A stretch of 25,830 bases of DNA. It comes from a virus. Numbering within the stretch: position 1 is the stretch's first letter; every line of letters starts with the position of its first letter. The stretch covers positions 1 through 25,830 of IMG/VR virus record IMGVR_UViG_3300017605_000304, one strand, 5' to 3'. The notes beneath the pieces were generated by a model, which saw only the letters and a list, made by a program, of their open reading frames with translations, had not been told where the DNA came from and did not search any database. A program made the position numbers and the translations under genes. Shown one piece after another: positions 1 to 12,457 of this stretch.

Positions 1-193
1 CATCTGGGCTGTTTACGTCGGTTGTGCTGATTTGGTGGCCGGTTTGGGTATTTGTGTATTCTGTGAGCATTAGGTTAGCTTCGAGCCATATTGCTAACTC
101 TAGGGACATCTCTCCTAGTTCGGGTATTATGGGAGAATTGCCTATTGTGCGGTTAAATAGTAGGAGGTGAGTCTCTTGGTCGAATATTGGCAT
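1..193 (-). CDS. Hypothetical protein, 3' end outside window
   Basis: An open minus-strand frame starts at the ATG at 193-191 and runs off the left edge, giving at least 64 residues (starts MPIFDQETHLLLFNRTIG). A purine-rich GGAGAG lies about 14 bases upstream, rather far for a Shine-Dalgarno. The visible part is mixed helix-like sequence with no motif I recognise. It is followed upstream by the hairpin at 209-258. It appears to be the most distal visible member of the leftward array. Function unknown; the reading frame itself is reasonably likely because it stays open with protein-like composition. Confidence 0.5.
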   Translation of the reverse strand, partial: MPIFDQETHLLLFNRTIGNSPIIPELGEMSLELAIWLEANLMLTEYTNTQTGHQISTTDVNSPD

Positions 194-208
194 TTTTCCG
201 GTCACTCT

Positions 209-258
209 CCGTGCTGGTTGGTATCTAGGTTGTCGATGACCTAGGGATTATAGCACGG
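209..258. repeat. Two-step inverted repeat upstream of the leftmost gene
   Basis: The outer arms CCGTGCT (209-215) and AGCACGG (252-258) are perfect complements. They enclose the inner arms CTAGGT (225-230) and ACCTAG (239-244). This nested layout resembles the hairpins at 1891-4056 but the sequences differ. It lies just upstream of the start of the leftmost minus-strand gene, so it could act in that gene's leader or end an upstream transcript. No T-run follows. Confidence 0.5.
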
Positions 259-311
259 AGTGCGACCTTACTTCACGCGGATGAGCCGCGAGCCAATATC
301 CTGTCTAGCGC

Positions 312-329
312 GATCTTGTGGCCAAGATC
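312..329. repeat. GATCTTG/CAAGATC inverted pair
   Basis: GATCTTG (312-318) and CAAGATC (323-329) face each other across four bases, and the right half continues as CAAGATCAAC. This is the leftmost member of a motif family (GTTGATCTTG and its complement) that recurs up to position 2749. A short loop and perfect 7-bp arms allow either an RNA hairpin or a dimer-binding DNA site. Confidence 0.6.
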
Positions 330-870
330 AACTTTTTGGCTATGGGAAAAATCCGGACAAATTGGGTATTTGGTTTCTTGTTTCCTTATTTCTAAAATTT
401 AATCGCGAATAGGAAGTATTGTCCTAGTTTCTAGAGTACTGTCCTTATGCGGTAATGTTCTTGTTGGTGAGAAAGTGCGGGTAAAGTGATAGAGAGAAGA
501 GTTTAAGAACAGAGTAGTCGGCGCATCCAGAAGAAACTTATGGTACAGTTTATTTCCGGTTATGTCCGTATTTGTACCGAAAAAATTTTCTTAAATGCTT
601 GTTCTTGTAGATTACAGGTATTTATAGAAAATTTGGTTTTCTAGGGTTTTACGCAGTGGAGAAGTGAGTAGGTTTGGGGTTGAATGTCCGATTGGAACAA
701 GTGTTGGACTGCGATATGAGTGGTAACTAGGGGGGGTCGAGCGGTGTCTATAAGAACCTCAAGCCGAGAAGAAACTTTTATTGGTGGAAATTTCCCCCTA
801 TTTGGTGATTTTGGGCATGTGCGATTTTCCCCCCGGTTTGTTGGTTTGTGGGTGGGATTGGTTGTGTATG

Positions 871-906
871 TGCCGACTTTTTGCGAAAAGTCCAATTATT
901 GAGGAC
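871..906. repeat. 36-bp direct repeat, copy 1
   Basis: This block matches 5520-5555 at about 32 of 36 positions, in the same orientation. It begins TGCCGACTTTTTG and ends AGGAC. Copy 1 contains a perfect stem GACTTTT-TGCG-AAAAGTC, which is imperfect in copy 2. Both copies lie in gene-poor DNA. Confidence 0.65.
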
Positions 907-962
907 TTTGTTCGATAGGTATGAAAATAGGTGGACATGGGTTGAAATGTCCGAATTTGAAA

Positions 963-1004
963 GTGGATCTTGAACGAGGTGTTGATCTTGTGTTCAAGAT
1001 CCAC
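963..1004. repeat. 13-bp perfect inverted repeat carrying the GATCTTG motif
   Basis: The arms GTGGATCTTGAAC (963-975) and GTTCAAGATCCAC (992-1004) are exactly complementary. The 16-base loop holds another GTTGATCTTG copy (981-990). So three motif copies lie within 42 bp, which suggests clustered binding or pairing sites rather than a simple terminator. No T-run follows on either strand. Confidence 0.65.
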
Positions 1005-1017
1005 AATCAAAATCTGA

Positions 1018-1061
1018 CATTTGGTGATTTATTGTTGTTTGTGGTGATTTATTACCAAATG
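1018..1061. repeat. Inverted repeat enclosing a 12-bp direct repeat
   Basis: CATTTGGT (1018-1025) and ACCAAATG (1054-1061) are complementary. Between and partly within them TGGTGATTTATT occurs twice (1022-1033 and 1042-1053). It covers the stop codon and 3' flank of the minus-strand gene ending at 1052, so it may be a transcript-end structure for that gene. Confidence 0.5.
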
Positions 1062-1294
1062 AACTGCATTCCACCGTGTCGGTTAGATGTGGTAGTTTCT
1101 AACCGCTTTAGTCGTGCTTCGGTGGCTTCGTCTGCTATGACGCAGTTTGTAGTTTTTCGGTAGATAAGTCCGATAGGATTCGGTACGCGAATTCCGGGCT
1201 GTTTAGGTCCGAATGGGTGCTTCTTTCGCTTTGACCGTTGTTTGGTTGTATAGGGCATTGGCGGATTAGTTGGCTGTTCGTTGTCATTTGCCAT
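1052..1294 (-). CDS. Basic hypothetical protein
   Basis: A minus-strand frame of 80 residues from the ATG at 1294-1292 (starts MANDNEQPTNPP). The open frame extends upstream to 1378 and offers ATGs at 1309 and 1378, but none has a good ribosome site; the chosen start has only a weak GGAC a few bases upstream. The middle is strongly basic (KQRSKRKK) and the C-terminal half looks like an ordinary folded or helical segment rich in Arg and Glu. No family recognised. A nucleic-acid-binding role would fit the charge but is only a guess. The frame is weaker than its neighbours and could be spurious. Confidence 0.4.
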   Translation of the reverse strand: MANDNEQPTNPPMPYTTKQRSKRKKHPFGPKQPGIRVPNPIGLIYRKTTNCVIADEATEARLKRLETTTSNRHGGMQFIW

Positions 1295-1540
1295 GTTTGT
1301 CCGTTTCATGCTGTTGATGGTTAGTTGATCTTGCGTTTTGCCTGGCTGAGCTGCTGCCTGTGGTGTCCAGGGAGGCATGCGGCCCGCTGTACTGGCCTGT
1401 GAGCGCTGTTGATCTTGTTTTAGTACCGTTGCCTGGGTATGAATGTTGATCTTGTTAGGATCGCTCTCAGCAGGTCATGACAGTATATGATCTTGAACTG
1501 CAAGATCATATACCATCAAGATCAGCCGATTTATTGTGAT
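1295..1540. other. Gene-free stretch with clustered GATCTTG motifs
   Basis: No convincing gene. GATCTTG occurs at 1327-1333, 1411-1417, 1448-1454 and 1489-1495, and CAAGATC at 1501-1507 and 1517-1523. The first three carry the full GTTGATCTTG form, all in one orientation. This is the densest part of the motif family. Confidence 0.5.
1483..1513. repeat. Strong hairpin downstream of a leftward gene
   Basis: Perfect 13-bp arms GTATATGATCTTG (1483-1495) and CAAGATCATATAC (1501-1513) with a 5-base loop. It lies about 28 bases past the stop codon of the gene at 1541-1870, read on the minus strand. It could end or protect that transcript, but no U-run follows, so it is not a textbook intrinsic terminator. 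The stem also presents two GATCTTG half sites. Confidence 0.65.
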
Positions 1541-1870
1541 TTATGTGTACATGTGTGGATATTCCGTTATTACGTACAATAGTGCCTGATGATGCGTTGT
1601 GGACTTACTGTACGTAATTTCCGGAATGAACCAATCGTGTGGTTCGCTGATATTGCACCAACCTATAGGTGTTTGCCAGGAATACACGATATACACATCT
1701 TGTGCGTTTAAGCGTGCTGTGAGCTGATCTACGAGGAAACTAGGCAATATTCCGGTTTGGAAGGAAACCCTCTCAATTGACCGAATTGCACTGATGTTTC
1801 CCCTTTGGAATGGTTCAAGCTTTCTGATGGCTTCCGCCATGATAAGCCTGGTATTCATCTGTGTGCCCAC
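1541..1870 (-). CDS. Hypothetical protein, 109 aa
   Basis: I place the start at the GTG at 1870-1868 because the bases before it read GGACATTGGAGACAAAA, almost the same leader (GGACATAGGAGACAAA) that precedes many other genes of this array. An ATG four codons in (1858) lacks such spacing. The protein has a helical N-terminal third (MAEAIRKLEPF) and an aromatic-rich C-terminal half (VYIVYSWQTPIGWC). No family recognised. The hairpin at 1891-1952 lies directly upstream and a strong hairpin lies downstream. Confidence 0.6.
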   Translation of the reverse strand: MGTQMNTRLIMAEAIRKLEPFQRGNISAIRSIERVSFQTGILPSFLVDQLTARLNAQDVYIVYSWQTPIGWCNISEPHDWFIPEITYSKSTTHHQALLYVITEYPHMYT

Positions 1871-1890
1871 TTTTGTCTCCAATGTCCGAT

Positions 1891-1952
1891 TTAGGTGGGT
1901 CACAGCACTGTTGATCTTGCAGGGAAGATCAACAGCACTGAAATACACCTAA
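1891..1952. repeat. Nested intergenic palindrome, copy A1
   Basis: The outer arms are TTAGGTG (1891-1897) and CACCTAA (1946-1952). The inner arms are CTGTTGATCTT (1908-1918) and AAGATCAACAG (1925-1935), exact complements. The element fills the gap between the gene start at 1870 and the stop at 1949-1951, which lies inside the right outer arm. This copy's inner arms carry the GTTGATCTTG-family motif. Confidence 0.75.
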
Positions 1953-2143
1953 TTTGCGTAACTAGGCCATTCTGAGATGGTATCTTCGATAGATGGCGAA
2001 TCGTACGTTAAGTAGTCTTCGTCTGGATCGTACTCATTGTCCGATTCATCCTCTTCGTCGTAATCGTCTTCTTCGTCGTAATCGTTCTGAATGGTGTATC
2101 TGTCCTCATATTCCATTTCGAGAGATTCATCCGGTTCGTACAT
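1949..2143 (-). CDS. Very acidic small protein with YDEED repeats
   Basis: 64 residues from the ATG at 2143-2141, with GGAAGGAA about five bases upstream. The centre is a tandem acidic repeat (two copies of YDEED followed by more Asp/Glu). More than a third of residues are Asp or Glu. Such a protein could mimic DNA charge, as phage DNA-mimic inhibitors do, but no family signature supports that and the repeat may partly follow from the 9-bp nucleotide period seen here. It lies between palindromes A1 and A2. Confidence 0.6.
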   Translation of the reverse strand: MYEPDESLEMEYEDRYTIQNDYDEEDDYDEEDESDNEYDPDEDYLTYDSPSIEDTISEWPSYAN

Positions 2144-2163
2144 TTTATTCCTTCCGATGTGGA

Positions 2164-2242
2164 TTAGGTGGACATGGAGGGAATCAGTACTGATTGTATG
2201 TCTTTGTATGTGTACGTACTGATTCCAACCAAATGCACCTAA
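2164..2242. repeat. Nested intergenic palindrome, copy A2
   Basis: The outer arms are TTAGGTG (2164-2170) and CACCTAA (2236-2242). The inner arms are GGAATCAGTAC (2180-2190) and GTACTGATTCC (2216-2226), exact 11-bp complements with a 25-base loop, longer than in the other copies. The right outer arm overlaps the stop codon of the next gene upstream. Confidence 0.75.
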
Positions 2243-2421
2243 ATGTCTAGTCTTTGGAGCGTTTCGTAGGAAACAACCATTTCTAGCTGGTTTGGCTTGT
2301 ATGTCTCGATTTTGCCAGATGGCCACAAAATGACCACATTGCCAGCATCTGTCACTCTTAGTACCTTTCCGACTGGTTGTGCCAATGGCACTATTTGTAC
2401 CAAATCGTTAGGTTTAATCAT
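2239..2421 (-). CDS. Small protein with possible SH3/KOW-like barrel
   Basis: 60 residues from the ATG at 2421-2419, with AGAAGGG eight bases upstream. The pattern V-x-I-V-P with GKVLRV, a turn DAG, VVILW and a second turn PSG suggests a small five-strand beta barrel of SH3 or KOW type over residues 6-50. That reading is by pattern only. Such folds often bind nucleic acid or partner proteins. It is flanked by palindromes A2 and A3 and has the same gene-palindrome-gene spacing as its neighbours. Confidence 0.6.
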   Translation of the reverse strand: MIKPNDLVQIVPLAQPVGKVLRVTDAGNVVILWPSGKIETYKPNQLEMVVSYETLQRLDI

Positions 2422-2434
2422 GATGTGTACCCTT

Positions 2435-2492
2435 CTAGGTAGACATGGCTCAGAATCGGATTGTATGTCCGATTCTGACCAAATCTGTCTAG
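2435..2492. repeat. Nested intergenic palindrome, copy A3
   Basis: The outer part is divergent: CTAGGTAGACA (2435-2445) faces TGTCTAG (2486-2492). The inner arms CAGAATCGGA (2451-2460) and TCCGATTCTG (2468-2477) are exact 10-bp complements with a 7-base loop. The outer sequence changed on both sides (AGACA/TGTCT), so pairing was kept while sequence moved. Confidence 0.7.
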
Positions 2493-2494
2493 AA

Positions 2495-2674
2495 CTATCG
2501 GATACGTTCCATTACTTCCCATTGATGGTCAAATACACCGATTAGCGTCAATGTGAGCGATGTGTCTGGGTTTGCTGTGATTCGACTCAATCGCCACTTT
2601 GTGTCACTGTTGTCACGTAATGCGATGTATTCACCATTTGAGAAGTAAACACCGTTTGCAGTAGGAATGTTCAC
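2495..2674 (-). CDS. Hypothetical protein, 59 aa, coupled start
   Basis: I place the start at the GTG at 2674-2672. It follows GAAGGGGACAGA, matching the array's usual leader, and it overlaps the TGA of the upstream gene in a GTGA arrangement, so translation is likely coupled. The longer open frame up to 2773 would need a TTG without a ribosome site. The product is beta-rich (NGVYFSNGEYIALRD, then WRLSRI and TLTLIGVFDHQWEVM), perhaps a small barrel. No family recognised. Confidence 0.55.
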   Translation of the reverse strand: MNIPTANGVYFSNGEYIALRDNSDTKWRLSRITANPDTSLTLTLIGVFDHQWEVMERIR

Positions 2675-2835
2675 TCTGTCCCCTTCAGTACCGTTTGTCC
2701 GATTTTTGCCCCGTTGATCATGTGGGCCAAGATCAATTGCTTCAAGATCAGCGAATGCGCCTGATTTGCGCAATTGTTGAGGAATGCGTTATGCTTCCTG
2801 ATTTGACCAACTGTGAGGCTAATTCGGTGCTTCAT
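2671..2835 (-). CDS. Hypothetical basic/helical protein, 54 aa
   Basis: From the ATG at 2835-2833 the frame reads MKHRISLTVGQIRKHNAFL and ends at the TGA at 2673-2671, inside the next gene's GTG. An AAAGGAG lies about 10 bases before the start. It is predicted to be mostly helical and basic. Three GATC-family motifs (2713-2749) lie inside it and shape part of its sequence (LKQLILAH region). It sits upstream of the coupled gene at 2495-2674 and fills what would otherwise be a gap. Function unknown. Confidence 0.5.
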   Translation of the reverse strand: MKHRISLTVGQIRKHNAFLNNCANQAHSLILKQLILAHMINGAKIGQTVLKGTE

Positions 2836-2850
2836 GGTATTTTGCTCCTT

Positions 2851-2906
2851 TTAGGTGGACATGGGACATTTGGGTTGGTTATCCCAAATGTCCGAAATTC
2901 ACCTAA
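2851..2906. repeat. Nested intergenic palindrome, copy A4
   Basis: The outer arms are TTAGGTG (2851-2857) and CACCTAA (2900-2906). The inner arms GGACATTTGGG (2864-2874) and CCCAAATGTCC (2883-2893) are exact 11-bp complements with an 8-base loop. On the minus strand the element runs from the stop codon of the lipoprotein gene to the AAAGGAG of the next. Confidence 0.75.
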
Positions 2907-3070
2907 TCGCCCTTGTTTGTGGTCCATTCGACTGCTTTTCCATCGACATATACCACATTACACGGAGATGATGGGGTATTTCCCAAACATGTAATATTTG
3001 CTGTTTCGTCCGTTTTGCATCCTGATGTCAAGATTAGGATGATTACCGCAACAAATGTCCATTTACGCAT
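2903..3070 (-). CDS. Small lipoprotein
   Basis: 55 residues from the ATG at 3070-3068, with GGGAG five bases upstream. A short charged N-terminus (MRKW) is followed by a hydrophobic stretch at residues 5-14 and the lipobox LTSGC, with Cys18 as the expected lipidated residue after signal peptidase II cleavage. The mature part has two more cysteines (Cys28, Cys37) that could form a disulfide outside the membrane. Small phage lipoproteins often act at the cell surface, for example in superinfection exclusion; that role here is inference from localisation only. Confidence 0.65.
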   Translation of the reverse strand: MRKWTFVAVIILILTSGCKTDETANITCLGNTPSSPCNVVYVDGKAVEWTTNKGD

Positions 3071-3081
3071 GTATGCTCCCT

Positions 3082-3138
3082 TTAGGTGGACATTCGGCAA
3101 ATCAGCGTTTATGTCTGATTTGCCTAGGTATTCACCTA
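3082..3138. repeat. Nested intergenic palindrome, copy A5
   Basis: TTAGGTG (3082-3088) faces CACCTA (3133-3138). The inner arms GGCAAATCAG (3096-3105) and CTGATTTGCC (3115-3124) are exact complements with a 9-base loop. It fills the gap between the lipoprotein gene and the gene at 3136-3327. Confidence 0.72.
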
Positions 3139-3327
3139 CTTTCGCATGATTAGTGTGTTATCAAAGGTTTCAACCGAATTGCTCGTTATGTGCTCAATGA
3201 TGATTTTGTCATTGAAAATGAGTAATCTGACGGTTAGGCCGTTATCGGTTATAACGTGTATCATGCCCGATTCGTGATTGTAAATCACCATTGCACCGTC
3301 TTGACTCATTATTTGGAATTTGTCCAT
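3136..3327 (-). CDS. Hypothetical beta-rich protein, 63 aa
   Basis: Starts at the ATG at 3327-3325, with AAAGGAG about five bases upstream. Alternating hydrophobic residues (MVIYNHESGMIHVI, TVRLLIFNDKIIIEHI) suggest a compact beta sheet of four or five strands. No cysteines, no signal peptide, no known motif. It is flanked by palindromes A5 and A6. Confidence 0.6.
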   Translation of the reverse strand: MDKFQIMSQDGAMVIYNHESGMIHVITDNGLTVRLLIFNDKIIIEHITSNSVETFDNTLIMRK

Positions 3328-3338
3328 GTTACTCCTTT

Positions 3339-3395
3339 TTAGGTGGACATGAATGGTATGGGATGTTTAGTCCCATACCAAACAAAAACACCTAA
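3339..3395. repeat. Nested intergenic palindrome, copy A6
   Basis: The outer arms are TTAGGTG (3339-3345) and CACCTAA (3389-3395). The inner arms TGGTATGGGA (3354-3363) and TCCCATACCA (3371-3380) are exact complements with a 7-base loop. The stop codon of the DUF2637-like gene directly abuts the right outer arm. Confidence 0.75.
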
Positions 3396-3983
3396 TTAGG
3401 CTTCTACGGCACTAAAGGTAGGAATTGTGGCGATGGCCGGCTTTGGTGTAACTGCCGGCTTTTTCGGAGTTGCCGTCTTTACCGGAGTTGCTGCCTTTGT
3501 CGCTGTTGTCCGTTTTGCAGGCGTTTTTGCGGGAACGGGTACTGTTGTGGCTTTCGCCACGCTAGGTACCTTTTCTACCACTTTTTGCGTTGTGTCCTTC
3601 ATAGCCAAAATGAGCATTCCGACTATAGATGGGAAGTCTACCACAAATGGGTAAGGTTTGGCGATATACCACGGTTGTCCGTTTCGCAACGCTTGCTCAT
3701 AAATGTGGTATCCGCTCATCCCAAAAGCGATAATTGCTACCAATCCGAGCCCAATCCACACGAATACTTTAGAAAGCCACCTTTTGAGCGGAAGGTAGCT
3801 AATCGTGTGAATGGTCCCAAAAAGGACAATTACCGGAAAGACTGCATAAGCAACAGGTTCCGCGCTAAGCGCCGTAGAACGGACATTAGAGAAAATCGAC
3901 ATAACTAGGGTAAGTCCGACAAGTACCGATCCCCAGAATCGTCCCTTTTGATACCGTGTACGCGGAATGCGCAGAAGATCCAT
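3396..3983 (-). CDS. DUF2637/SpdB-like membrane protein with basic tail
   Basis: 195 residues from the ATG at 3983-3981. Four hydrophobic segments lie at about 17-33, 43-63, 72-94 and 112-128. The third and fourth, joined by GYHIYEQALRNGQPW and followed by PFVVDFPSIVGMLI, match the DUF2637 pattern (helix, short amphipathic link, P-x-x-V-D, helix), a family found in actinobacterial plasmid spread (SpdB) and phage proteins. Residues 136-185 are a low-complexity Ala/Lys/Pro/Thr tail resembling histone H1, probably cytoplasmic and able to bind nucleic acid. It is the largest gene of the leftward array. Family assignment is by motif memory, with no search done. Confidence 0.65.
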   Translation of the reverse strand: MDLLRIPRTRYQKGRFWGSVLVGLTLVMSIFSNVRSTALSAEPVAYAVFPVIVLFGTIHTISYLPLKRWLSKVFVWIGLGLVAIIAFGMSGYHIYEQALRNGQPWYIAKPYPFVVDFPSIVGMLILAMKDTTQKVVEKVPSVAKATTVPVPAKTPAKRTTATKAATPVKTATPKKPAVTPKPAIATIPTFSAVEA

Positions 3984-3993
3984 TTTAGGCCCC

Positions 3994-4056
3994 TTTCAGG
4001 TAGGGAAAGCACAGAACGGTATAGTTAGTACCGTTCTGCACTTTTTCTACCTGAAA
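3994..4056. repeat. Nested intergenic palindrome, copy A7
   Basis: The outer arms TTTCAGGTAG (3994-4003) and CTACCTGAAA (4047-4056) are exact 10-bp complements, although their sequence differs from the usual TTAGGTG/CACCTAA. The inner arms CAGAACGGTA (4012-4021) and TACCGTTCTG (4029-4038) are also exact. This copy lies in the leader of the DUF2637-like gene. Confidence 0.78.
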
Positions 4057-4196
4057 GTGCAGTAAAGTCACTGTTTAGATCTCAATGTCCGATTTCAGGG
4101 TGATTTTCCGGATTCCTCCGTCAGCGTCCCCTCGGCCGCTACCATTCTATTGTAACACACTCAAATCGGGCAATTGTTAGAATATTCGCAATTCCC
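4057..4196 (-). promoter_or_regulatory. Leader and likely promoter of the leftward block 1
   Basis: No gene here. On the minus strand an extended -10, TGTTACAAT, occurs at 4157-4149, preceded by GATTTGAGTG, which resembles the context of the -10 at 6361-6369. The CRP-like site at 4200-4215 lies about 50-60 bp upstream of that -10, a usual activating distance. No clear -35 is seen, which fits an activator-dependent promoter. Transcription would enter palindrome A7 and then the DUF2637-like gene. Confidence 0.45.
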
Positions 4197-4301
4197 CTAT
4201 GTGATCTGTGTCACACCCGATACGCTAGCTAAGAGTAGTAAGAGTAGAATGCAATAGATTAAGCAGTTCCATGCTATTGCATCCCCTTCGCGTTGGTTCA
4301 T
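4197..4301 (-). CDS. 34-residue single-span membrane peptide
   Basis: From the ATG at 4301-4299 the frame reads MNQREGDAIAWNC and then a hydrophobic helix (LIYCILLLLLLAS, residues 14-26), ending at the TAG at 4199-4197. A perfect AAGGAG lies eight bases upstream. Short charged N-terminus, one membrane helix and a small C-terminal tail are typical of phage toxin-like, holin-accessory or membrane-modulating peptides, but no family can be named. Its last codons overlap the CRP-like site at 4200-4215. It sits between the second and first repeat styles of the array. Confidence 0.6.
   Translation of the reverse strand: MNQREGDAIAWNCLIYCILLLLLLASVSGVTQIT
4200..4215. promoter_or_regulatory. CRP/GlxR-type palindrome 1
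   Basis: TGTGATCTGTGTCACA fits TGTGA-N6-TCACA exactly. This is the consensus bound by CRP-family regulators, including actinobacterial Crp, GlxR and Cmr. It overlaps the end of the 34-residue gene and lies upstream of a leftward extended -10 at 4149-4157. Confidence 0.65.
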
Positions 4302-4316
4302 GCTGTTTTCTCCTTA

Positions 4317-4696
4317 ATGTACGGATATAAACTGTCTGCCCAAGTTTGTCCGTTTTAGAGATGATGAATCGTGCTATGTGCGCTGATTTCGTACAATAGC
4401 TCTTTAGTCGCCTGAACCGACGCATATGCATCCGGATAGGTGAATTTCAGGCTACACCACACATACAGTGCAGATCCATCTAAAGCCGACATTTGGTACG
4501 GAAGTGATGGATCGTACTTTTCCATCGGATTGTTGACGATGTGCCACAATATCGTGACATGTCCGCTTTGTCCGATAAAGAAGTCATTTGACTGATTCGT
4601 ACTACTTCCATCCCAATTGTCCCCGTATCCTACGGGAAGAGATGAATTGTCCATTTTGCCCCTCACTGTCTGGGCAGACAGCATATAACCGTACAT
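4317..4696. repeat. Gene-enclosing inverted repeat, cassette B1
   Basis: The arms at 4317-4341 and 4672-4696 are inverted copies, 22 of 25 matching, and enclose the gene at 4355-4654. The right arm overlaps the left arm of the next cassette by three bases. A tight hairpin CTGTCTG-GG-CAGACAG also overlaps the right arm. Confidence 0.72.
4355..4654 (-). CDS. Hypothetical protein, 99 aa
   Basis: I start at the ATG at 4654-4652 because GAGGGG lies four bases upstream in the array's usual leader form; an upstream extension to 4723 would run through the inverted-repeat arm. The N-terminus is Gly/Ser/Asn-rich (PVGYGDNWDGSSTNQSND) and the rest is mixed, with aromatic clusters (YVWCSLKFTYPDAY). It could be a small globular alpha/beta protein. 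No family recognised. Enclosed by cassette repeat B1. Confidence 0.6.
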   Translation of the reverse strand: MDNSSLPVGYGDNWDGSSTNQSNDFFIGQSGHVTILWHIVNNPMEKYDPSLPYQMSALDGSALYVWCSLKFTYPDAYASVQATKELLYEISAHSTIHHL

Positions 4697-5102
4697 GTGC
4701 GGATATAAGAGGATATGACCCAAGATGTCCGATTAGTACTAAACTTCCTGAATGAAGAATTCGGTATCGTATGAGTCGTTAAAGGTGGTATCTTCCCATT
4801 GGTCCGGATCGTTCATAATACCCGGATCATCATGAATGTCGCGAATGTCCGCTTCTAGTGCGGACCAATTATCCATTTCGTACTCTTCCGCTTCATTCAT
4901 CTCATTCTGGACCCATTTGAGCAAATTGGTAATAGCTTGCGCAAACGTCCTTTCTTCGCCCAAAATGACCTCAATGGGAGACATGCATGGATCTGCGGAC
5001 GTATCCATCTTATCCGTCAAATCCCACTCAGTATAACCGTAAGTCCACATTTTCTACTCCATTTTGGTGAACTCAGGTCATATCCTCATAAATCCGTACA
5101 TG
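4694..5102. repeat. Gene-enclosing inverted repeat, cassette B2
   Basis: The arms at 4694-4720 and 5076-5102 match at 24 of 27 positions in inverted orientation. They enclose the gene at 4739-5050. Neighbouring arms of B1 and B3 overlap its ends by three and five bases. Confidence 0.75.
4739..5050 (-). CDS. Acidic hypothetical protein, 103 aa
   Basis: Starts at the ATG at 5050-5048, with GGAG seven bases upstream. Strongly acidic, with a helix-forming centre (AQAITNLLKWVQNEMNEAEE) followed by Asp-rich segments (DIRDIHDDPG, DPDQWEDTTFND). No cysteines essential for a motif and no membrane segment. Function unknown; an acidic protein-interaction role is possible. Enclosed by cassette repeat B2. 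Confidence 0.62.
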   Translation of the reverse strand: MWTYGYTEWDLTDKMDTSADPCMSPIEVILGEERTFAQAITNLLKWVQNEMNEAEEYEMDNWSALEADIRDIHDDPGIMNDPDQWEDTTFNDSYDTEFFIQEV

Positions 5103-5461
5103 TAACGTTAGACTGGCATGTCTCATATGACTGGAATTATCCGATATGCCCGATTTGTCCAACTTCCCACAGGTATGCGAACTCTACCTGCTCTTGTGCG
5201 GGAATGTTATTCTTTCTGGCATATGGACACTGTTGCAACCAATTGACCGTTACCTTGTTTTCGCCCGATATTCTCTCAATGACCACTCCGAGACAAATGT
5301 CGGTAAAGATAGGGTTGTCCGATTCGGCATCCCATGCGTGGATAACGCATGGATTGTGTATTCCGTCCGGTTCTAGCTTGGTTACGAGTGTTCCGTCCAT
5401 GATTGGCATAGTTTCTCCCTATTGTCCGTTTTGAGAGACATGCCAGTTTAGCGCTACATGT
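5098..5461. repeat. Gene-enclosing inverted repeat, cassette B3
   Basis: The arms at 5098-5124 and 5435-5461 match at 24 of 27 positions in inverted orientation and enclose the gene at 5137-5409. Both arms carry the short TTAGAC/TTTAGC-like core seen in several cassettes. Confidence 0.75.
5137..5409 (-). CDS. Hypothetical protein, 90 aa
   Basis: Starts at the ATG at 5409-5407 with AGGGAG about five bases upstream. An internal ATG three codons in is possible. The sequence is mixed alpha/beta: GTLVTKLEPDG, then CVIHAWDAESDNPIF, and LGVVIERISGENKVTVNWL, which looks like two antiparallel strands with a turn. It holds three cysteines without a C-x2-C pattern. No family recognised. Enclosed by cassette repeat B3. 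Confidence 0.6.
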   Translation of the reverse strand: MPIMDGTLVTKLEPDGIHNPCVIHAWDAESDNPIFTDICLGVVIERISGENKVTVNWLQQCPYARKNNIPAQEQVEFAYLWEVGQIGHIG

Positions 5462-5614
5462 ACCCCTAAATCCCTCCCCCTCCCACTATGTTCCACCTGT
5501 GGTGGGTTTGTCTAGAGGCTGCCGACTTTTTGTGAAATGTCCAATTCTTTAGGACGTTATACGCCCTTCCCTAAGGAATCGGACAAGTCGGATTTGTGCT
5601 ACTTGTCCGTCTTG
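5462..5614. other. Palindrome-dense gap between cassettes
   Basis: No gene. It holds CCACCTGTGGTGG (5493-5505, self-complementary ends), the second copy of the 36-bp repeat, an inverted repeat 5539-5553/5570-5584 (13 of 15), and GGACAAGT/ACTTGTCC at about 5581-5608. It breaks the otherwise back-to-back cassette series between B3 and B4 and may be a control or former cassette site. Confidence 0.5.
5520..5555. repeat. 36-bp direct repeat, copy 2
   Basis: Matches 871-906 at about 32 of 36 positions in the same orientation. The GACTTTT stem of copy 1 is only partly kept here (GACTTTT/AAATGTC). It lies in the gene-free gap between cassettes B3 and B4. Confidence 0.65.
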
Positions 5615-5943
5615 CTAGGAAATGTACTCTTTGTCAGGCATGTCCGTTTTGCACTATTTAGGAGTTATATACCCTATTGGCCCATTCGACCTGATTTTCG
5701 CCGAAACGCTCGATTTGTACCTTAAGTGCGATTAGCACCTCTTGTTCCAAATCGGTGGGAATGCCCGCATTGACCAGAGCCTTCCGAAATGCCTGATATG
5801 GGTAGTCTAGGTCGATCTGAGCCATTTCGCCCAGTCCTTCCCGAATGTCCATTTCGAGGCTTTCGTCTGCAAAGCCCATTACGTCCATTTTGTCTCCTTT
5901 GTCCGATACGTCGGACATGCCTGATAAGGAGCACATTTCCTAG
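5615..5943. repeat. Gene-enclosing inverted repeat, cassette B4
   Basis: The arms at 5615-5646 and 5912-5943 match at 29 of 32 positions in inverted orientation, the longest pair. They enclose the gene at 5658-5888. The right arm ends on the first base of the next cassette's left arm. Confidence 0.78.
5658..5888 (-). CDS. Acidic hypothetical protein, 76 aa
   Basis: Starts at the ATG at 5888-5886, directly after the standard leader AAAGGAGACAAA. Acidic N-terminal half (MDVMGFADESLEMDIREG) and a helical C-terminal half (QAFRKALVNAGIPTDLEQEV, IALKVQIERFGENQ). In the N-terminal half Asp or Gly falls on nearly every third codon, following the 9-bp nucleotide period. Function unknown. Enclosed by cassette repeat B4. 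Confidence 0.62.
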   Translation of the reverse strand: MDVMGFADESLEMDIREGLGEMAQIDLDYPYQAFRKALVNAGIPTDLEQEVLIALKVQIERFGENQVEWANRVYNS

Positions 5944-6270
5944 ATGTCGGGATTCAACCCCATATGTCCGGATTGTCCGATTTGTCCTAGTTGGCTAGGA
6001 TTCGGGGGATTCTACCCATATAGTCGGCAAAGCCACCAAATGTCATGACAACAGAGGGATCGTCCGCAATGTCTAGCATGTCCTGTGTTTCCTCATTTGG
6101 GAAGAATGCCTGATCTGCCTCATTCTTCTCATTTGTCACGAAATGTCCGATTTGCGGTAGTCCGCACACATTGTCGTAGTAAAGCACCTGATGTACGGAA
6201 TATCGTGCTTTGGCCATTTTGTCCTCCTATGTCCGTTTTATCCAGACATATGAGGATGATTCCCGACATC
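5943..6270. repeat. Gene-enclosing inverted repeat, cassette B5
   Basis: The arms at 5943-5971 and 6242-6270 match at 25 of 29 positions in inverted orientation and enclose the gene at 5987-6217. This is the most divergent pair. Confidence 0.7.
5987..6217 (-). CDS. Hypothetical protein, 76 aa
   Basis: Starts at the ATG at 6217-6215 with AGGAGG seven bases upstream. Basic and aromatic N-terminus (MAKARYSVHQVLYYDN) and an acidic middle (NEKNEADQAFFPNEETQDML). No motif recognised. It is the first gene downstream of the leftward promoter region at 6275-6440 and is enclosed by cassette repeat B5. Confidence 0.62.
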   Translation of the reverse strand: MAKARYSVHQVLYYDNVCGLPQIGHFVTNEKNEADQAFFPNEETQDMLDIADDPSVVMTFGGFADYMGRIPRILAN

Positions 6271-6459
6271 TCCACTATTGAGTTGATAAGAGACGATTTG
6301 AGGGGGTTTCGCCCGATTGCCCGGTTCCTCCTCGTTTGTCCGTTCTGCCCTACTACCTCCAGTATACCACACCCTATATCCGAAATGTCCGAATTATCAT
6401 CATATTTCAGGGAGAAGTTGATCTGTGATCTTCGTCACACCGAAATATCCGTCATTTCC
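6271..6459 (-). promoter_or_regulatory. Leftward promoter region 2 with conserved leader
   Basis: On the minus strand an extended -10, TGGTATACT, lies at 6369-6361, preceded by GATATAGGGTG. The CRP-like site is 6424-6439. Downstream of the -10, positions 6275-6321 form a leader block nearly repeated at 8548-8594 (about 40 of 47 bases). No gene is visible. This should drive the leftward genes starting with 5987-6217. Confidence 0.5.
6424..6439. promoter_or_regulatory. CRP/GlxR-type palindrome 2
   Basis: TGTGATCTTCGTCACA fits TGTGA-N6-TCACA exactly. It is preceded by GTTGATC, as is site 3 at 8785. It lies about 60-65 bp upstream of the leftward -10 at 6361-6369. Confidence 0.65.
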
Positions 6460-6499
6460 GATATAGTAGCTTTAGACCGTCATGTCCGTTTTGGTATGG

Positions 6500-6652
6500 T
6501 TAGTCCGTATTGCAGAAAAAGCCCGGAACGCCCGAAATTTCGTATCCGCACCCAAAGAGAACAATGCCCTTGTTTGTCCCGTTATAGACTCTTATGTTCC
6601 ACAACGTGACAAATGTCAGGATTAGGACGATTGTCCAAATTGCCCTCTTCAT
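6500..6652 (-). CDS. Small secreted or membrane-anchored protein, 50 aa
   Basis: From the ATG at 6652-6650, overlapping the upstream TGA as ATGA, so coupled to the gene at 6649-6849. It reads MKRAIWTIVLILTFVTLW, a charged start plus a hydrophobic helix (residues 5-18), then a short polar part with two cysteines (Cys35, Cys47) that could be disulfide-bonded outside the cell. It ends at the TAA at 6502-6500. No lipobox. Signal anchor or signal peptide are both possible. Function unknown. Confidence 0.6.
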   Translation of the reverse strand: MKRAIWTIVLILTFVTLWNIRVYNGTNKGIVLFGCGYEISGVPGFFCNTD

Positions 6653-6849
6653 GCCGATACGTACCTTGGATAGGCATTTCGGTGCATAAGGTACGATTTC
6701 TCCGCTAAGCGAAGTTCGTCCTCTATGACCTCAATGTCCGGTTCGTCCAGAATGTCCAAAATGCCAAAAACGTCGAATTTGTCTAACATGTCCATTTTGT
6801 TACGAAATTCCCTTTCGTCCAAAATGTCCTGATAGTTCATTCTAGGCAT
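6649..6849 (-). CDS. Acidic hypothetical protein, 66 aa
   Basis: I start at the ATG at 6849-6847, preceded by AAAGGAG with seven bases spacing; an upstream frame extension runs into the repeat arm. The centre is rich in repeated Asp-Ile/Leu (DILDE, MDMLDKF, ILDILDEPDIEV), which follows from the GTCC/GGAC-type 9-bp period and may still form an acidic helix. The C-terminus is basic and aromatic (SYLMHRNAYPRY). Function unknown. Coupled to the membrane peptide downstream. Confidence 0.6.
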   Translation of the reverse strand: MPRMNYQDILDEREFRNKMDMLDKFDVFGILDILDEPDIEVIEDELRLAEKSYLMHRNAYPRYVSA

Positions 6850-6905
6850 GTTTGTACTCCTTTGTCCGTTTTGTACGGACATGACGGTTTAGAGCTACTA
6901 TATCC

Positions 6906-7269
6906 GATATACCCGTTTTAGACTGGCATGTCCGTTTTGCATTACTTTACAGTGATTTTACCGTTTTGGAGCTTTTCGACCGTCGCGTACCATTTGCGGT
7001 TGTTGTACGGGTTTGGACCGGTAACGGAGTATTTGACCCCAATGACCAAATTGTCCGCACTGCCCGTAAAGGGCGTATGGTCCGAAGTGCCGTATACGAC
7101 CACATCATCCGGATTTGCCTCAATTGCCCGCTTTAGGGCAGCTTTGGTAGGAATGTCCTTTCCGTCCGATCTGTTCTGTACGCCCACATTTACGTAGCTT
7201 GCCACGTTTTGCTCCTTATGTCCGATTTGTGTTTTAATGTCGGACATGCCAGTTTAGAACGGGTATATC
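6906..7269. repeat. Gene-enclosing inverted repeat, cassette B7
   Basis: The arms at 6906-6934 and 7241-7269 match at 27 of 29 positions in inverted orientation and enclose the gene at 6942-7205. Both arms hold TTTAGA in the plus orientation, which accounts for both mismatches. Confidence 0.78.
6942..7205 (-). CDS. Hypothetical beta-rich protein, 87 aa
   Basis: I start at the GTG at 7205-7203 because AAGGAGCAAAAC lies directly before it, whereas the ATG at 7247 lies inside the inverted-repeat arm. The product begins MASYVNVGVQNRSDG. It has a helix (TKAALKRAIEANPDD) followed by VVVYGTSDHTPF and LVIGVKYSVTGPNPYN, then KWYATVEKLQNGKITV, a possible alpha-plus-beta fold. The helix-turn-strand pattern could bind DNA or protein, but no family is recognised. 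Enclosed by cassette repeat B7. Confidence 0.65.
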   Translation of the reverse strand: MASYVNVGVQNRSDGKDIPTKAALKRAIEANPDDVVVYGTSDHTPFTGSADNLVIGVKYSVTGPNPYNNRKWYATVEKLQNGKITVK

Positions 7270-7271
7270 AT

Positions 7272-7601
7272 GAATCATCCGGTTATAAATGGGTATGTCT
7301 CGTTCTGTCCGATTTTAGGCGGTTTGTGACCTTTCGAGTACCATGCGACGATGATCCCGAATTGTCTGTAATGCCCTACTTGTGGCAAGTTGGTCGTCTT
7401 CGTCCTCTATGCCCGATTCGACCACTTTGTCCCATATCATTTGGAATGTCCAAGTTACCAGCATTTCTGCCTTTATGGCCGCAAAGACCGCTTTGTGCAC
7501 CTTTGGGCTTCTTGTCCATAGATATGGCATTTGCACCGTTTTGGCCATTTCGTCTCCTATGTCCGTTTTGGGAGACATACCCATATATGACCGGATGATT
7601 C
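7272..7601. repeat. Gene-enclosing inverted repeat, cassette B8
   Basis: The arms at 7272-7301 and 7572-7601 match at 28 of 30 positions in inverted orientation and enclose the gene at 7315-7548. Two bases separate it from B7 and three from B9. Confidence 0.8.
7315..7548 (-). CDS. Hypothetical helical protein, 77 aa
   Basis: Starts at the ATG at 7548-7546, after the standard leader GGACATAGGAGACGAA. Predicted mostly helical: SPKVHKAVFAAIKAEMLVTW, FQMIWDKVVESGIEDEDD and TSRALQTIRDHRRMVLERS. The basic C-terminal helix could contact nucleic acid, but no helix-turn-helix is clear. Function unknown. Enclosed by cassette repeat B8. Confidence 0.65.
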   Translation of the reverse strand: MAKTVQMPYLWTRSPKVHKAVFAAIKAEMLVTWTFQMIWDKVVESGIEDEDDQLATSRALQTIRDHRRMVLERSQTA

Positions 7602-7604
7602 TAA

Positions 7605-7889
7605 ACAATCCAGGTTTAGACGCATATGTCCGATTTGGTTACTTTTAGGCGTCTTCGACCAGTTTGATCACAATGTCCGAATCGTGCATATAGTCCTCTA
7701 TGAGAAAACTGCGATCATTGCGAAGAATGTCCTCAATCTCCTCTTTGAGTACTATGTCCACATTGTCGAATCTGTCCGCTTCTGTCTCGATTAGTACCCA
7801 AATGTGAACTTTGCCGTTTTCGTCCACATATTCCATTTTTGTCTCCTATGTCCGTTTTGGCCGGACATATGCGTTTAGACCTGGATTGT
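7605..7889. repeat. Gene-enclosing inverted repeat, cassette B9
   Basis: The arms at 7605-7632 and 7862-7889 match at 26 of 28 positions in inverted orientation and enclose the gene at 7645-7836. Between the ribosome site and the right arm a second ATGTCCG faces the arm's CGGACAT, giving a local hairpin next to the ribosome site. Confidence 0.8.
7645..7836 (-). CDS. Acidic hypothetical protein, 63 aa
   Basis: Starts at the ATG at 7836-7834 after GGACATAGGAGACAAAA. Begins MEYVDENGKVHIWVLIETEA, which looks like a beta hairpin, then acidic helices (IVLKEEIEDILRNDRSFLIED). The product is strongly acidic. No family recognised. Enclosed by cassette repeat B9. Confidence 0.62.
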   Translation of the reverse strand: MEYVDENGKVHIWVLIETEADRFDNVDIVLKEEIEDILRNDRSFLIEDYMHDSDIVIKLVEDA

Positions 7890-7892
7890 CTG

Positions 7893-8229
7893 GATAATCC
7901 GGTTATGGGGTGTATGTCCGATTTGCACTATCTGTCTAAATTGCGCCGATTTTCCACGGTTCGACCTCTATGAGCGTTTCGCCCACAATGCCCACTACGT
8001 TCCAATCGTCGTCTATGACACATTCGCGCATAATGACCGTATTGCCCAGATTGGGTAGTTCGACCACTATGTACAGTTTGTCCTCATTGTCCGGAGTGAG
8101 CATAAACTCCTCATATCCGACGATTGTCCCAAATTCGACCCGAAAGTCGTCTTTGTCCAAATAGTACGTAGTTTCCATTTTGTCTCCTATGTCCGATTCG
8201 GCGGACATACACCCTATGACCGGATTATC
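7893..8229. repeat. Gene-enclosing inverted repeat, cassette B10
   Basis: The arms at 7893-7920 and 8202-8229 match at 26 of 28 positions in inverted orientation and enclose the gene at 7936-8178. Confidence 0.8.
7936..8178 (-). CDS. Hypothetical beta-rich acidic protein, 80 aa
   Basis: Starts at the ATG at 8178-8176, after GGACATAGGAGACAAA; a longer frame to 8262 would cross the repeat arm. The strands VEFGTIVGYEE, KLYIVVELPN, TVIMRECVIDDDWNVVGIVG and TLIEVEPW suggest a small barrel. It lies in the clearest 9-bp-periodic stretch: sixteen successive 9-mers in one phase from 7963 all begin with G on the plus strand. Function unknown. Enclosed by cassette repeat B10. Confidence 0.65.
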   Translation of the reverse strand: METTYYLDKDDFRVEFGTIVGYEEFMLTPDNEDKLYIVVELPNLGNTVIMRECVIDDDWNVVGIVGETLIEVEPWKIGAI

Positions 8230-8237
8230 CGATCTGT

Positions 8238-8530
8238 CTCTCAAGTCCCCTATGTCCGGCATGTCCGCTTTTGCTTAGATCTGACCGGTTAGGAAGGCTT
8301 TCTCCAGTTTCACCAAGTTTGTCTTGGTTTCGACTAGCTTGTCCAGTTTCGCCGTGATTTGTCGTACTGCGTCCTGGAATGTCGTGATATCATCCCGAAT
8401 GTCCAGGTTTAGCACGTCTTGGGAGATTTCGTCTAGATCTGCGTTGAAATGTCCCGCAATGGCGTCTTTGTCCATCTTTGTCTCCTTATGTCCGTTTTGT
8501 CGGACATGCCGGATATGGGAGACTTGAGAG
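8238..8530. repeat. Gene-enclosing inverted repeat, cassette B11
   Basis: The arms at 8238-8267 and 8501-8530 match at 27 of 30 positions in inverted orientation and enclose the gene at 8275-8475. It is the last gene-bearing cassette, next to the control region. Confidence 0.78.
8275..8475 (-). CDS. Coiled-coil-like hypothetical protein, 66 aa
   Basis: Starts at the ATG at 8475-8473, after GGACATAAGGAGACAAAG. Almost wholly helical with heptad-like hydrophobics (VLNLDIRDDITTFQDAVRQI, AKLDKLVETKTNLVKLEKAF), so a short coiled coil or oligomeric helix bundle is likely. It is the first gene of the leftward array downstream of promoter region 3 and so is probably the most strongly expressed. Function unknown. 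Enclosed by cassette repeat B11. Confidence 0.65.
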   Translation of the reverse strand: MDKDAIAGHFNADLDEISQDVLNLDIRDDITTFQDAVRQITAKLDKLVETKTNLVKLEKAFLTGQI

Positions 8531-8784
8531 CTTTGCCCTGTCTGTCGCTATTGAGTTGAAAAGTGACGATTTGGGTTGGTTTCACCGGTTTGCCGGAAGT
8601 GTCCGGTATTTCCGTTCCGCCCCCTTGGTGCACCTTCAGTCTAGCATAGCCCGGTCTGTGCTACTATGTCGTATATGTCCGTTTTATGGTCATATAGCAG
8701 GGCAAGTTTTGACCCACTATATTAGTACAAATCCGGACATATACGATATATACGGGCAGAACGGGGCAAATGGGGATGTTGATC

Positions 8785-8800
8785 TGTGACGTACGTCACA
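8785..8800. promoter_or_regulatory. CRP/GlxR-type palindrome 3
   Basis: TGTGACGTACGTCACA is a perfect 16-bp palindrome and fits TGTGA-N6-TCACA. As at site 2 it is preceded by GTTGATC. It lies upstream of the leftward array. Confidence 0.68.
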
Positions 8801-8881
8801 CTGACCCACTATATGGTGATATGTCCCATATGCCCGTTTCAATATGCCCCTTATATGGGCATATATCCGGACATACCGGAC

Positions 8882-8897
8882 TGTGATGTACGTCACA
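8882..8897. promoter_or_regulatory. CRP/GlxR-type palindrome 4
   Basis: TGTGATGTACGTCACA fits TGTGA-N6-TCACA exactly, 97 bp from site 3 centre to centre (about nine helical turns), so the two could be bound on one face of the DNA. Confidence 0.66.
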
Positions 8898-9203
8898 CTG
8901 TGAGGTATATGATGATATGCCCCTTATATGTGGATATAGGGTAATATGTCCGTTTTGCGATGATTGTGCGTGTCCGGATTATGAGTAAATAAGATGATAT
9001 ATTAACTATATTATGAAATAAGATGATAAATTGGACATTTTGGCAGGTTCCACGTAGATCTAAGATGAAAAGAAGTGTTAGTGAATTGACATAGTAATAA
9101 ATCGATTATTCTTAGATTCAACGAGGATTGGCTGTAAAAAGAAGTGTTAACAAATTGACAGTATTATAAGCATATAATTGAAAATAATGTGATTTAGTGA
9201 AAT

Positions 9204-11041: not shown

Positions 11042-12457
11042 ATGACAACACAACAGGTGCGGGCGGTATCTAAGGAGAAGTATTTCGAACTCATTGGATA
11101 TAAACCACACGAAAAGCAGCGTTTATTCCATGATTCCAAGGCTCGGTTTAAGATTCCCGTATGTGGTAGACGGTTCGGAAAAACATATATGGGTGCTCGT
11201 GAGGCCGAACCTATTCTCATGATACCAGACAAACGAATTTGGATTTGTGGTCCTACTTATGACCTGGGTGAGAAAGAATTCCGGGTCATTTGGCAGGATA
11301 TGATTGTAAAACTAGGACTTGGTAAAGAAAAATCTGTAAAACGCTCATTTAACAAACGTTCTGGCGATATGTACATAGAATTTCCGTGGAATACAAGACT
11401 TGAGGTTCGCAGTGCTGATAGACCTGAAACTTTGGTTGGTGACGCGCTTGATTACGTCATTATGGCCGAAGCTGCGAAGCACAACAAAGAAACCTGGGAC
11501 CGATATATTAGACCAGCCCTGGCAGACCGGCGCGGTAGTGCCACATTCAGTACCACGCCCGAGGGGCAAAACTGGATTCACGACCTATGGCAGTTAGGCA
11601 GAAACCCACTTTTTGAAGAATACGAATCATGGAGATTTCCTTCGTGGGAAAATACTCATATTTACCCTGATGGTCGTACTGATAAAGAAATTCTGTTACT
11701 CGAACGTACTATGCCGTTCGAGTGGTTCCAACAGGAAATTGCGGCTGACTTTACCTCGTTCATGGGGAAGATTTACAGTGAATGGGATGAAGTTACGCAC
11801 GTAAAGCCACATGTTTACAACCCAATGTGGAAAAACTACATAGCATTCGACTGGGGTTTCGTAAACCCGATGGCCGCAGTTGAATTCCAAGTAGATCCGA
11901 TGGATAGAATACATGTTTGGCGACTACATTATAAAGTACACACCAGACTTGAAACATTTCTCGACCAAATGCGGACAAGAGAACAGCCAAAAGGTTACAA
12001 AATTGATTTATGTTTTGGCGATGCGGCAGATCCTGAAGCGAATGCCACTGTTTGTGCTAAGTTTGCACCATGCATTTCCAAGCCAGAATCTAAGACCAAC
12101 TGGCGAGAAGGCATAGATTTAGTCAAACAATTTTTATCAACCAGGACCGTGGGGCACGCAGACGAATTCGGCACGCCCATAGATGAGCCCTGGCTGTTTG
12201 TAGACCCGTCCTGTGGTGACCTAATCAGAGAATTCAACAATTATCGTGCGGCTGCACCATCTACTGGTAAAAACAACAGAAACCCAAGAGAAGATGCACA
12301 AAAATATGATGATCATGCTCTAGATGCACTACGTTATGGATTGATGCATATTTTCAAGCTTGGTTGCACTATGAGCTTAACTGATATTTATGGAAATGTC
12401 GAAATGAAAGACATTCCAGATACTGGTTATTTCACGCAGAATATGGAATTCGCATGA
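11042..12457 (+). CDS. terL: Terminase large subunit
   Basis: 471 residues, the ATP-driven DNA packaging motor and headful or end-cutting nuclease. The ATPase half shows Walker A GRRFGKT (residues 42-48), a hydrophobic Walker B ending in E143 (YVIMAEA), and a coupling motif STTPEG (170-175). The nuclease half has the RNase-H-like acid set D270 (IAFDWGF), D327 (CFGDAAD) and D423/D424/D428 (YDDHALDAL). Length is normal. No Shine-Dalgarno is visible; TAATATG links it to the membrane gene, so reinitiation is likely. Its TGA overlaps the next start. Confidence 0.93.
   Translation: MTTQQVRAVSKEKYFELIGYKPHEKQRLFHDSKARFKIPVCGRRFGKTYMGAREAEPILMIPDKRIWICGPTYDLGEKEFRVIWQDMIVKLGLGKEKSVKRSFNKRSGDMYIEFPWNTRLEVRSADRPETLVGDALDYVIMAEAAKHNKETWDRYIRPALADRRGSATFSTTPEGQNWIHDLWQLGRNPLFEEYESWRFPSWENTHIYPDGRTDKEILLLERTMPFEWFQQEIAADFTSFMGKIYSEWDEVTHVKPHVYNPMWKNYIAFDWGFVNPMAAVEFQVDPMDRIHVWRLHYKVHTRLETFLDQMRTREQPKGYKIDLCFGDAADPEANATVCAKFAPCISKPESKTNWREGIDLVKQFLSTRTVGHADEFGTPIDEPWLFVDPSCGDLIREFNNYRAAAPSTGKNNRNPREDAQKYDDHALDALRYGLMHIFKLGCTMSLTDIYGNVEMKDIPDTGYFTQNMEFA

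Follow-up and report, generated by a model that had tools for sequence, protein, structure and literature searches.

Probable mRNA hairpins with a kept base and changing upper stems in the gene gaps of a leftward phage operon

The question raised by this locus is why successive gaps between small phage genes hold nested palindromes whose pairing is exact while much of their sequence differs from copy to copy. The locus lies in the window, by which we mean the whole stretch analysed, a 25,830-base virus record of the IMG/VR database (IMGVR_UViG_3300017605_000304). The window belongs to a tailed phage, with TerL at 11042–12457 and small leftward genes clustered at about 1–8.5 kb. Seven elements, named A1 to A7, occupy 1891–4057 of this cluster on the minus strand. 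The analyses showed that these elements are very probably mRNA hairpins, and that six related phages carry 31 such elements ahead of diverged orthologous genes, with the pairing kept where both arms have changed.

The initial annotation had described seven nested palindromes in successive gaps, and all of them were recovered by the palindrome scan, which required an exact inner stem of at least 9 bp and outer arms of at least 6 bp. In 1000 dinucleotide-preserving shuffles of the region 1801–4100, the mean number of such palindromes was 0.004 and the maximum was 1, compared with the seven present. Folded as leftward-strand RNA, every element gives a single hairpin with a predicted energy from -23 to -40 kcal/mol and a z-score between -5.7 and -11.5. 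A1 (1891–1952, z -8.7) stands ahead of orf1541, A2 (2164–2242, loop of 25 nt, z -5.7) ahead of orf1949 and A3 (2433–2494, z -7.8) ahead of orf2239. They are followed by A4 (2851–2906) ahead of orf2671, A5 (3083–3138) ahead of orf2903, A6 (3339–3395) ahead of orf3136 and A7 (3993–4057, z -11.5) ahead of orf3396. The outer arms read TTAGGTG/CACCTAA in A1, A2, A4 and A6 and TAGGTG/CACCTA in A5. As noted earlier from the sequence, those of A3 (TTCTAG/CTAGAA) and A7 (CTTTCAGGTAG/CTACCTGAAAG) are changed on both sides and still pair. The inner stems of 10–11 bp are exact in all seven, and in A1 and A7 tandem G.U pairs below the inner stem extend it to 16 pairs. The description of the inner arms as exact within each copy therefore stands; that they are unrelated between copies holds only in part, since several reach, by eye, into the motif AAWCGGACA, which recurs across the genome.

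The relatives were found by a search with TerL, which gave 49 loci. Twelve of their records were followed, six of them over further stretches and the rest at the loci found with TerL. A covariance model, R1, was built from eight elements and, in line with the check proposed in the initial annotation, searched in the related phages. It matched seven of eleven whole records (the window, G005, G007, G008, G009, G004 and G011), with no match in the whole records G001, G003, G010 and G006. As G011 repeats G004 with 99.4–100% identity over the compared region, the elements are present in six distinct phages. R1 scored A4 at 74.2 bits and A6 at 72.3 bits, both being training sequences, and A5, A2 and A1 at 42.8, 37.8 and 32.2 bits. 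The best score among 46 control loci of other phages was 25.6 bits. By R1 score alone, A7 (24.3 bits) and A3 (21.7 bits) fall short of the best unrelated control locus; what identifies these two elements is the palindrome scan and their position.

The collected set consists of 29 elements, 22 from strand-symmetric palindrome scans and seven read upstream of orthologous genes, and the element counts given below refer to these 29. Two further elements, the A7 orthologue of G004 and an element of G005 at 5919–5989, bring the total to 31. The list was compiled partly by eye and represents six phages and essentially one operon. Elements occupy the equal place ahead of orf3396, orf2671 and orf1949 in six phages each and ahead of orf1541 in three. 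Identity to the window proteins is 36–47% for the orthologues of orf3396 and 41–56% for those of orf2671, the two families that were aligned. For orf1949, tblastn matched orthologues in G005 and G007 only; the acidic genes counted with this family in G008, G009 and G004 were placed there on visual likeness.

Searches beyond these phages did not extend the family. An A7-type pattern matched nine stretches, five of which are contigs outside the family; in these, tblastn with the 22 window proteins and TerL found nothing, and R1 did not match either. A short pattern matched at least 120 stretches, and R1 scored nothing above 23.6 bits on the 77 loci picked among the matches listed. The alignment of orf3396 orthologues, used as a query, retrieved no contigs beyond the known family members, and the single-sequence search with orf3396 found no relatives. 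No Rfam family matched the window at its gathering score (4227 families, covariance models).

The evidence for a kept structure comes from the way in which the arms change. Over the eight pairs nearest the loop, each element's own arms pair completely (1.0), whereas arms swapped between orthologues pair to 0.62, 0.46, 0.42 and 0.27; for orf3396 the swap used four of the six elements, the two with tip inserts being left out. Swapping all against all gave 0.40. In a MAFFT alignment of eight elements (alignment A2), 89.1% of the cells pair, compared with 68.6% in shuffles, and 27 cells are changed on both sides, compared with 9.7. Covariation in this alignment was 0.511 against 0.140 ± 0.038, none of 500 shuffles being as high, with the structure taken from the same alignment; after sliding the alignment by 1–3 columns it was 0.076–0.147. 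In every alignable element the inner arms have changed jointly at orthologous places, and a homologue with one inner arm changed alone, which the initial annotation had named as the refuting case, was not seen among the alignable orthologous elements. The A7 orthologue of G004 was considered as such a case and rejected, as the element proved complete, with its 5' arm farther upstream on the other side of a tip insert. It is thus well supported by the comparison of homologues that pairing kept under changed sequence reflects selection for structure. A different idea, that inner arms within a genome cross-pair less than they do with arms of other genomes, was also rejected: the longest cross-pairing run was 5.07 within genomes and 4.92 across them, and 75% of the label permutations were at or below the observed difference.

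The hairpins share a common anatomy. The stem has mostly 24–29 positions and begins with a base of 6–7 bp (11 in A7) of near-constant sequence, in which pairs 3–5 are Watson–Crick in 29 of 29 elements. Mismatches cluster at pairs 7–15 and interrupt the stem there, with at least one in nearly every copy, the exception being the A1 orthologue of G005. There are two or more kinds of mismatch zone, GATTTGG/CCATGTC and AGAAAAAGTGC/GTGCTTTCCCT. The upper stem has 8–20 pairs without common sequence, and a tandem U.G/G.U motif (GUGC..GUGC) is found repeatedly at its foot. Across the phages the outer arms compensate, reading TTAGGT/ACCTAA, TATGTG/CACATA, TTTGAT/ATCAAA, TTGGGT/ACCCAA or TTTCGCTAG/CTAGCGAAA. 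The loop is usually 4–12 nt and sometimes 19–25 nt, and two A7 orthologues carry inserts: that of G004 (L074, 15825–15962) measures 138 nt, with a long palindromic insert at the tip and a fold of -79.9 kcal/mol, and that of G007, a 99-nt element, has a long tip too. The G005 element at 5919–5989 lies outside the main operon, after the stop of another gene, and has a GAAA loop; after this outlying element, in the stretch L069 5700–5990, come a very short reading frame and, next, what by eye resembles a tRNA-like sequence.

The molecule under selection can be addressed through the mismatches. In DNA, a mismatch read as G.T from one strand reads as A.C from the complementary strand, so a DNA palindrome, or repair alone, predicts the two at equal frequency. 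On the mRNA strand, the inner segments contain 40 G.U and 2 A.C mismatches; the exact two-sided p of about 4e-10 would hold if they were independent, which they are not, as the tandem GUGC/GUGC motif recurs. Without the tandems the ratio is 16:2 (p 0.0013). It is 15:2 in the 22 scan-found elements and 25:0 in the seven found by reading, which were read on the mRNA strand and may thus be biased towards G.U. A strand-symmetric search of 33 gaps found a stem (score of at least 7.5) in 27, and its whole stems contain 48 G.T and 23 A.C, where base composition favours A.C (expected ratio 0.68). The A.C cells fall mostly in the mismatch zone, and pairs 16–26 hold 33 G.U and no A.C. This excess of G.U suggests that selection acts on the leftward mRNA. 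It was also expected that predicted energy would favour the mRNA strand, and this expectation was rejected: over 22 elements the summed energies are alike, -674 kcal/mol for the mRNA strand and -688 kcal/mol for the other. This weighs against selection on the mRNA, and the strand argument is carried by the G.U and A.C counts alone, in part by a recurring tandem motif. The leftward mRNA, and not a DNA palindrome, seems to be the selected molecule, on evidence that is good, if short of overwhelming.

In the leftward mRNA, each of A6 to A1 occupies the gap between two neighbouring genes, running from the upstream stop codon to the next ribosome site, as the initial annotation had it; A7 departs from that description, as it lies in an untranslated leader where no gene ends. 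The TAG stops of orf1949, orf2239, orf2903 and orf3136 fall within the 5' arms of A1, A2, A4 and A5, respectively, the stop of orf2495 lies directly upstream of A3, and A6 takes up the gap that separates the orf3396 stop (TAA) from the orf3136 ribosome site. Over all phages, 23 elements have an assigned upstream stop, which is within the 5' arm in 13, directly before it in 3 and elsewhere in 7. The start codon follows the 3' arm by 9–46 nt in all phages, with spacers of 20 nt after both A1 and A2 (starts at 1870 and 2143). The only cistron boundary without an element in this stretch is that of orf2671 and orf2495, whose stop and start codons overlap (GTGA).

Upstream of A7 a promoter-like extended -10 (TACAAT, 4149–4154, minus strand) was recognised by eye; like the ribosome sites and gene starts, it is a reading of the sequence. 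Hexamers resembling a -10, also found by eye, stand 148–263 nt ahead of the orthologous first-gene start in all six phages, and A7 is therefore probably a leader hairpin. Between 1000 and 5200 there is no terminator-like site on the minus strand, A7 giving such a match on the plus strand only, and none of the four promoter-like matches in this interval overlaps an element.

Of the roles suggested in the initial annotation, processing site and translation insulator both remain candidates. We rank first the reading that the hairpins mark cistrons for processing or protection, and give it, from sequence patterns, a little less than an even chance. A host ribonuclease specific for double strands, of the RNase III type, would bind or cut each hairpin as a double-stranded RNA signal, or the hairpin would alternatively act as a 5' block; either way the polycistronic message would be split into cistrons that are translated separately and protected at the 5' end. 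The stem base and mismatch zone would position the cut just before the next ribosome site, and the sequence of the upper stem could drift because only helicity is needed there. Some points tell against this reading. A phage RNase III gene was recognised in none of seven records, so that a host enzyme must be assumed; an enzyme that reads double strands only would need no conserved base sequence; and the early gaps of phage T7, folded as a yardstick, share the sequence of the upper stem, the reverse of the present design. The main rival is translation insulation or coupling, in which a stop codon in the 5' arm, with the next ribosome site brought near, controls whether terminating ribosomes pass on to the following start, or keeps upstream RNA away from the ribosome site. 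The 13 stops within the 5' arm and the 3 directly before it agree with such a role, and the boundary of orf2671 and orf2495, which lacks an element, has a coupled design by itself in its overlapping codons. According to a 2025 review, RNA structure directly after a stop codon reduces coupling (PMC12548453), which also favours it. However, no gene precedes A7 or its orthologues, and still A7 has the strongest fold among the hairpins of the window and is found in six of six phages; a leader element of this kind fits processing or protection better than coupling. Seven of the 23 stops lie elsewhere and the spacers to the start vary, and we consider insulation or coupling rather unlikely.

The remaining explanations are less probable still. 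The hairpins could be RNA operators whose base and mismatch zone are bound by a phage or host RNA-binding protein (a translational repressor, an antiterminator or a chaperone), the upper stem being a clamp. The conserved CATGTCCACCTAA side and mismatch zone, the free upper stem and the tandem motif at its foot would suit such a site; the existence of at least two kinds of mismatch zone, and of outer arms that differ among phages, would not, and the partner protein is hypothetical, which makes this reading improbable in our view. A selection-free origin of the inner arms, in which templated (quasi-palindrome) repair during replication perfects them and produces compensating changes, would account for the perfection of the arms nearest the tip and for the tolerance of long inserts there in the A7 orthologues of G004 and G007. 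It leaves unexplained the bias of G.U over A.C, which weakens it, as well as the kept mismatch zone and the constant place before orthologous genes in six phages, and it appears very improbable. Least credible of all are palindromes acting in the DNA as dimeric protein sites (such as the ESAS of mycobacteriophages, or operators), as cruciforms or as recombination sites. The elements are indeed palindromic, R1 scores the other strand too, and the predicted energies of the strands are alike, but the inner arms have no common sequence, so that a DNA-binding dimer could hardly read them. The 40:2 asymmetry largely refutes this group, including the dimeric sites proposed earlier, and no promoter-like match in 1000–5200 overlaps an element.

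A more general form of the processing or protection reading is that this phage lineage has built an RNA punctuation mark for cistrons, one hairpin per cistron, a proposal that we hold only tentatively. With similar reserve, the mark may be pictured as a hairpin whose 5' arm encloses the preceding stop and whose 3' arm borders on the following ribosome site, with the base and mismatch zone recognised and helicity sufficing above them. The 31 elements form a set of natural replicate hairpins at defined places, with changed arms and kept pairing, on which arm-swap tests could tell cutting, protecting, insulating and coupling apart.

The operon that holds the elements is read leftward on the minus strand, and its genes are inferred from their position to be early genes. 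The first, orf3396 (3396–3983), encodes a 195-aa membrane protein-like product with hydrophobic segments recognised by eye, a Lys/Thr/Pro-rich tail and a weak match to DUF2637, below the cut-off. It is followed by orf3136 (3136–3327, 63 aa), the lipoprotein-like orf2903 (2903–3070, 55 aa; below the cut-off), orf2671 (2671–2835, 54 aa), which has an orthologue in six of six phages, and orf2495 (2495–2674, 59 aa). The last three are orf2239 (2239–2421, 60 aa), SH3-like by a match to Pfam PF23044 just above the cut-off, orf1949 (1949–2143, 64 aa), encoding an acidic protein, and orf1541 (1541–1870, 109 aa), with a GTG start preceded by a GGAG ribosome site. DUF2637 has a mainly actinobacterial distribution, and the weak likeness of orf3396 to it is a faint hint of the identity of the host. 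TerL found no close match in the bacterial genomes of the host search. Bacterium UASB270 was considered as host on the strength of one 61% match of a profile search, on a scaffold so titled, and was set aside as this is insufficient to name a host.

Other repeats are present in the window. Positions 1–9200 contain 50 copies of the motif CGGACA on the leftward mRNA strand, mostly in the form AAWCGGACA, with 4.1 expected, and 11 in antisense with 1.2 expected; 13 of the 50 copies precede a listed start by at most 60 nt. The late region shows no enrichment (2 vs. 1.8 and 2 vs. 2.5), and five relatives likewise have 36–52 copies with 2.6–3.9 expected. A possible explanation is an oriented genome-wide signal, stoperator-like, Chi-like or for antitermination. 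GATCTTG and CAAGATC form a cluster in 300–1530 (7 and 4 copies), partly as inverted pairs, and also occur at 1913 and 2728–2743; the cluster is possibly a separate protein or partition site. The whole-window scan revealed an eighth nested palindrome at 945–1022, with outer arms AAATGTC/GACATTT and inner arms GTGGATCTTGAAC/GTTCAAGATCCAC, which is composed of the CGGACA and GATCTTG/CAAGATC repeats.

Among the open-access publications listed for the terms searched, none appears by its title to describe such elements. Integron attC sites have conserved outer arms and private, pairing inner arms after each gene, around the core RYYYAAC..GTTRRRY. The present elements resemble them in these arms and in their placement gene by gene, and differ from the attC core: the arms TTAGGTG..CACCTAA have the opposite orientation and vary among phages, many of them departing from that core. 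In cluster K mycobacteriophages, the start-associated palindromes called ESAS are described as having arms of a 17-bp consensus, with departures in the two repeats that lend no support to pairing in RNA (Pope 2011, PMC3203893), and those of Adephagia as containing SigA-like promoters (2024, PMC11373665). ESAS and the present elements are both inverted repeats with a variable spacer, placed in gaps just upstream of non-structural gene starts and kept with the gene family. Unlike those of ESAS, the present arms are private and keep their pairing, so that the same test comes out the other way. No 17-bp repeats of a common consensus were found, as the all-against-all swap also indicates, nor did the promoter scan of 1000–5200 place hexamers inside a repeat. 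The 17-bp and 18-bp dyad repeats of cluster O mycobacteriophages and cluster EG Microbacterium phages are likewise numerous short palindromes, often in gaps, but their sequence is near-invariant and their arms short, and they look like protein sites in DNA (PMC4351075, PMC7302621). Two look-alike classes of phage element are thereby separated, the start-associated palindromes without RNA pairing (ESAS) and those with it.

The RNase III sites of the early region of phage T7 bear the names R0.3, R0.5, R1, R1.1 and R1.3. The T7 gaps folded here (0.4–0.5, 0.7–1 and 1.2–1.3) gave hairpins directly before the next gene. As in our elements, these are single hairpins with an interrupted stem in early-gene gaps; unlike them, the folded T7 gaps share sequence in the upper stem, whereas in our elements the common sequence is that of the base and each upper stem has its own. 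Upper stems compared by eye showed no sequence kinship, and T7 is offered as the closest working parallel in design only, with no homology claimed. For the T7 site R1.1, one publication describes a role in driving mRNA maturation and protection (PMC8708148). If the tentative reading as a punctuation mark is true, the mark would be an independently evolved counterpart of the T7 sites with the inverse design, one whose upper stems are wholly replaced from relative to relative while the mark stays at the same gene.

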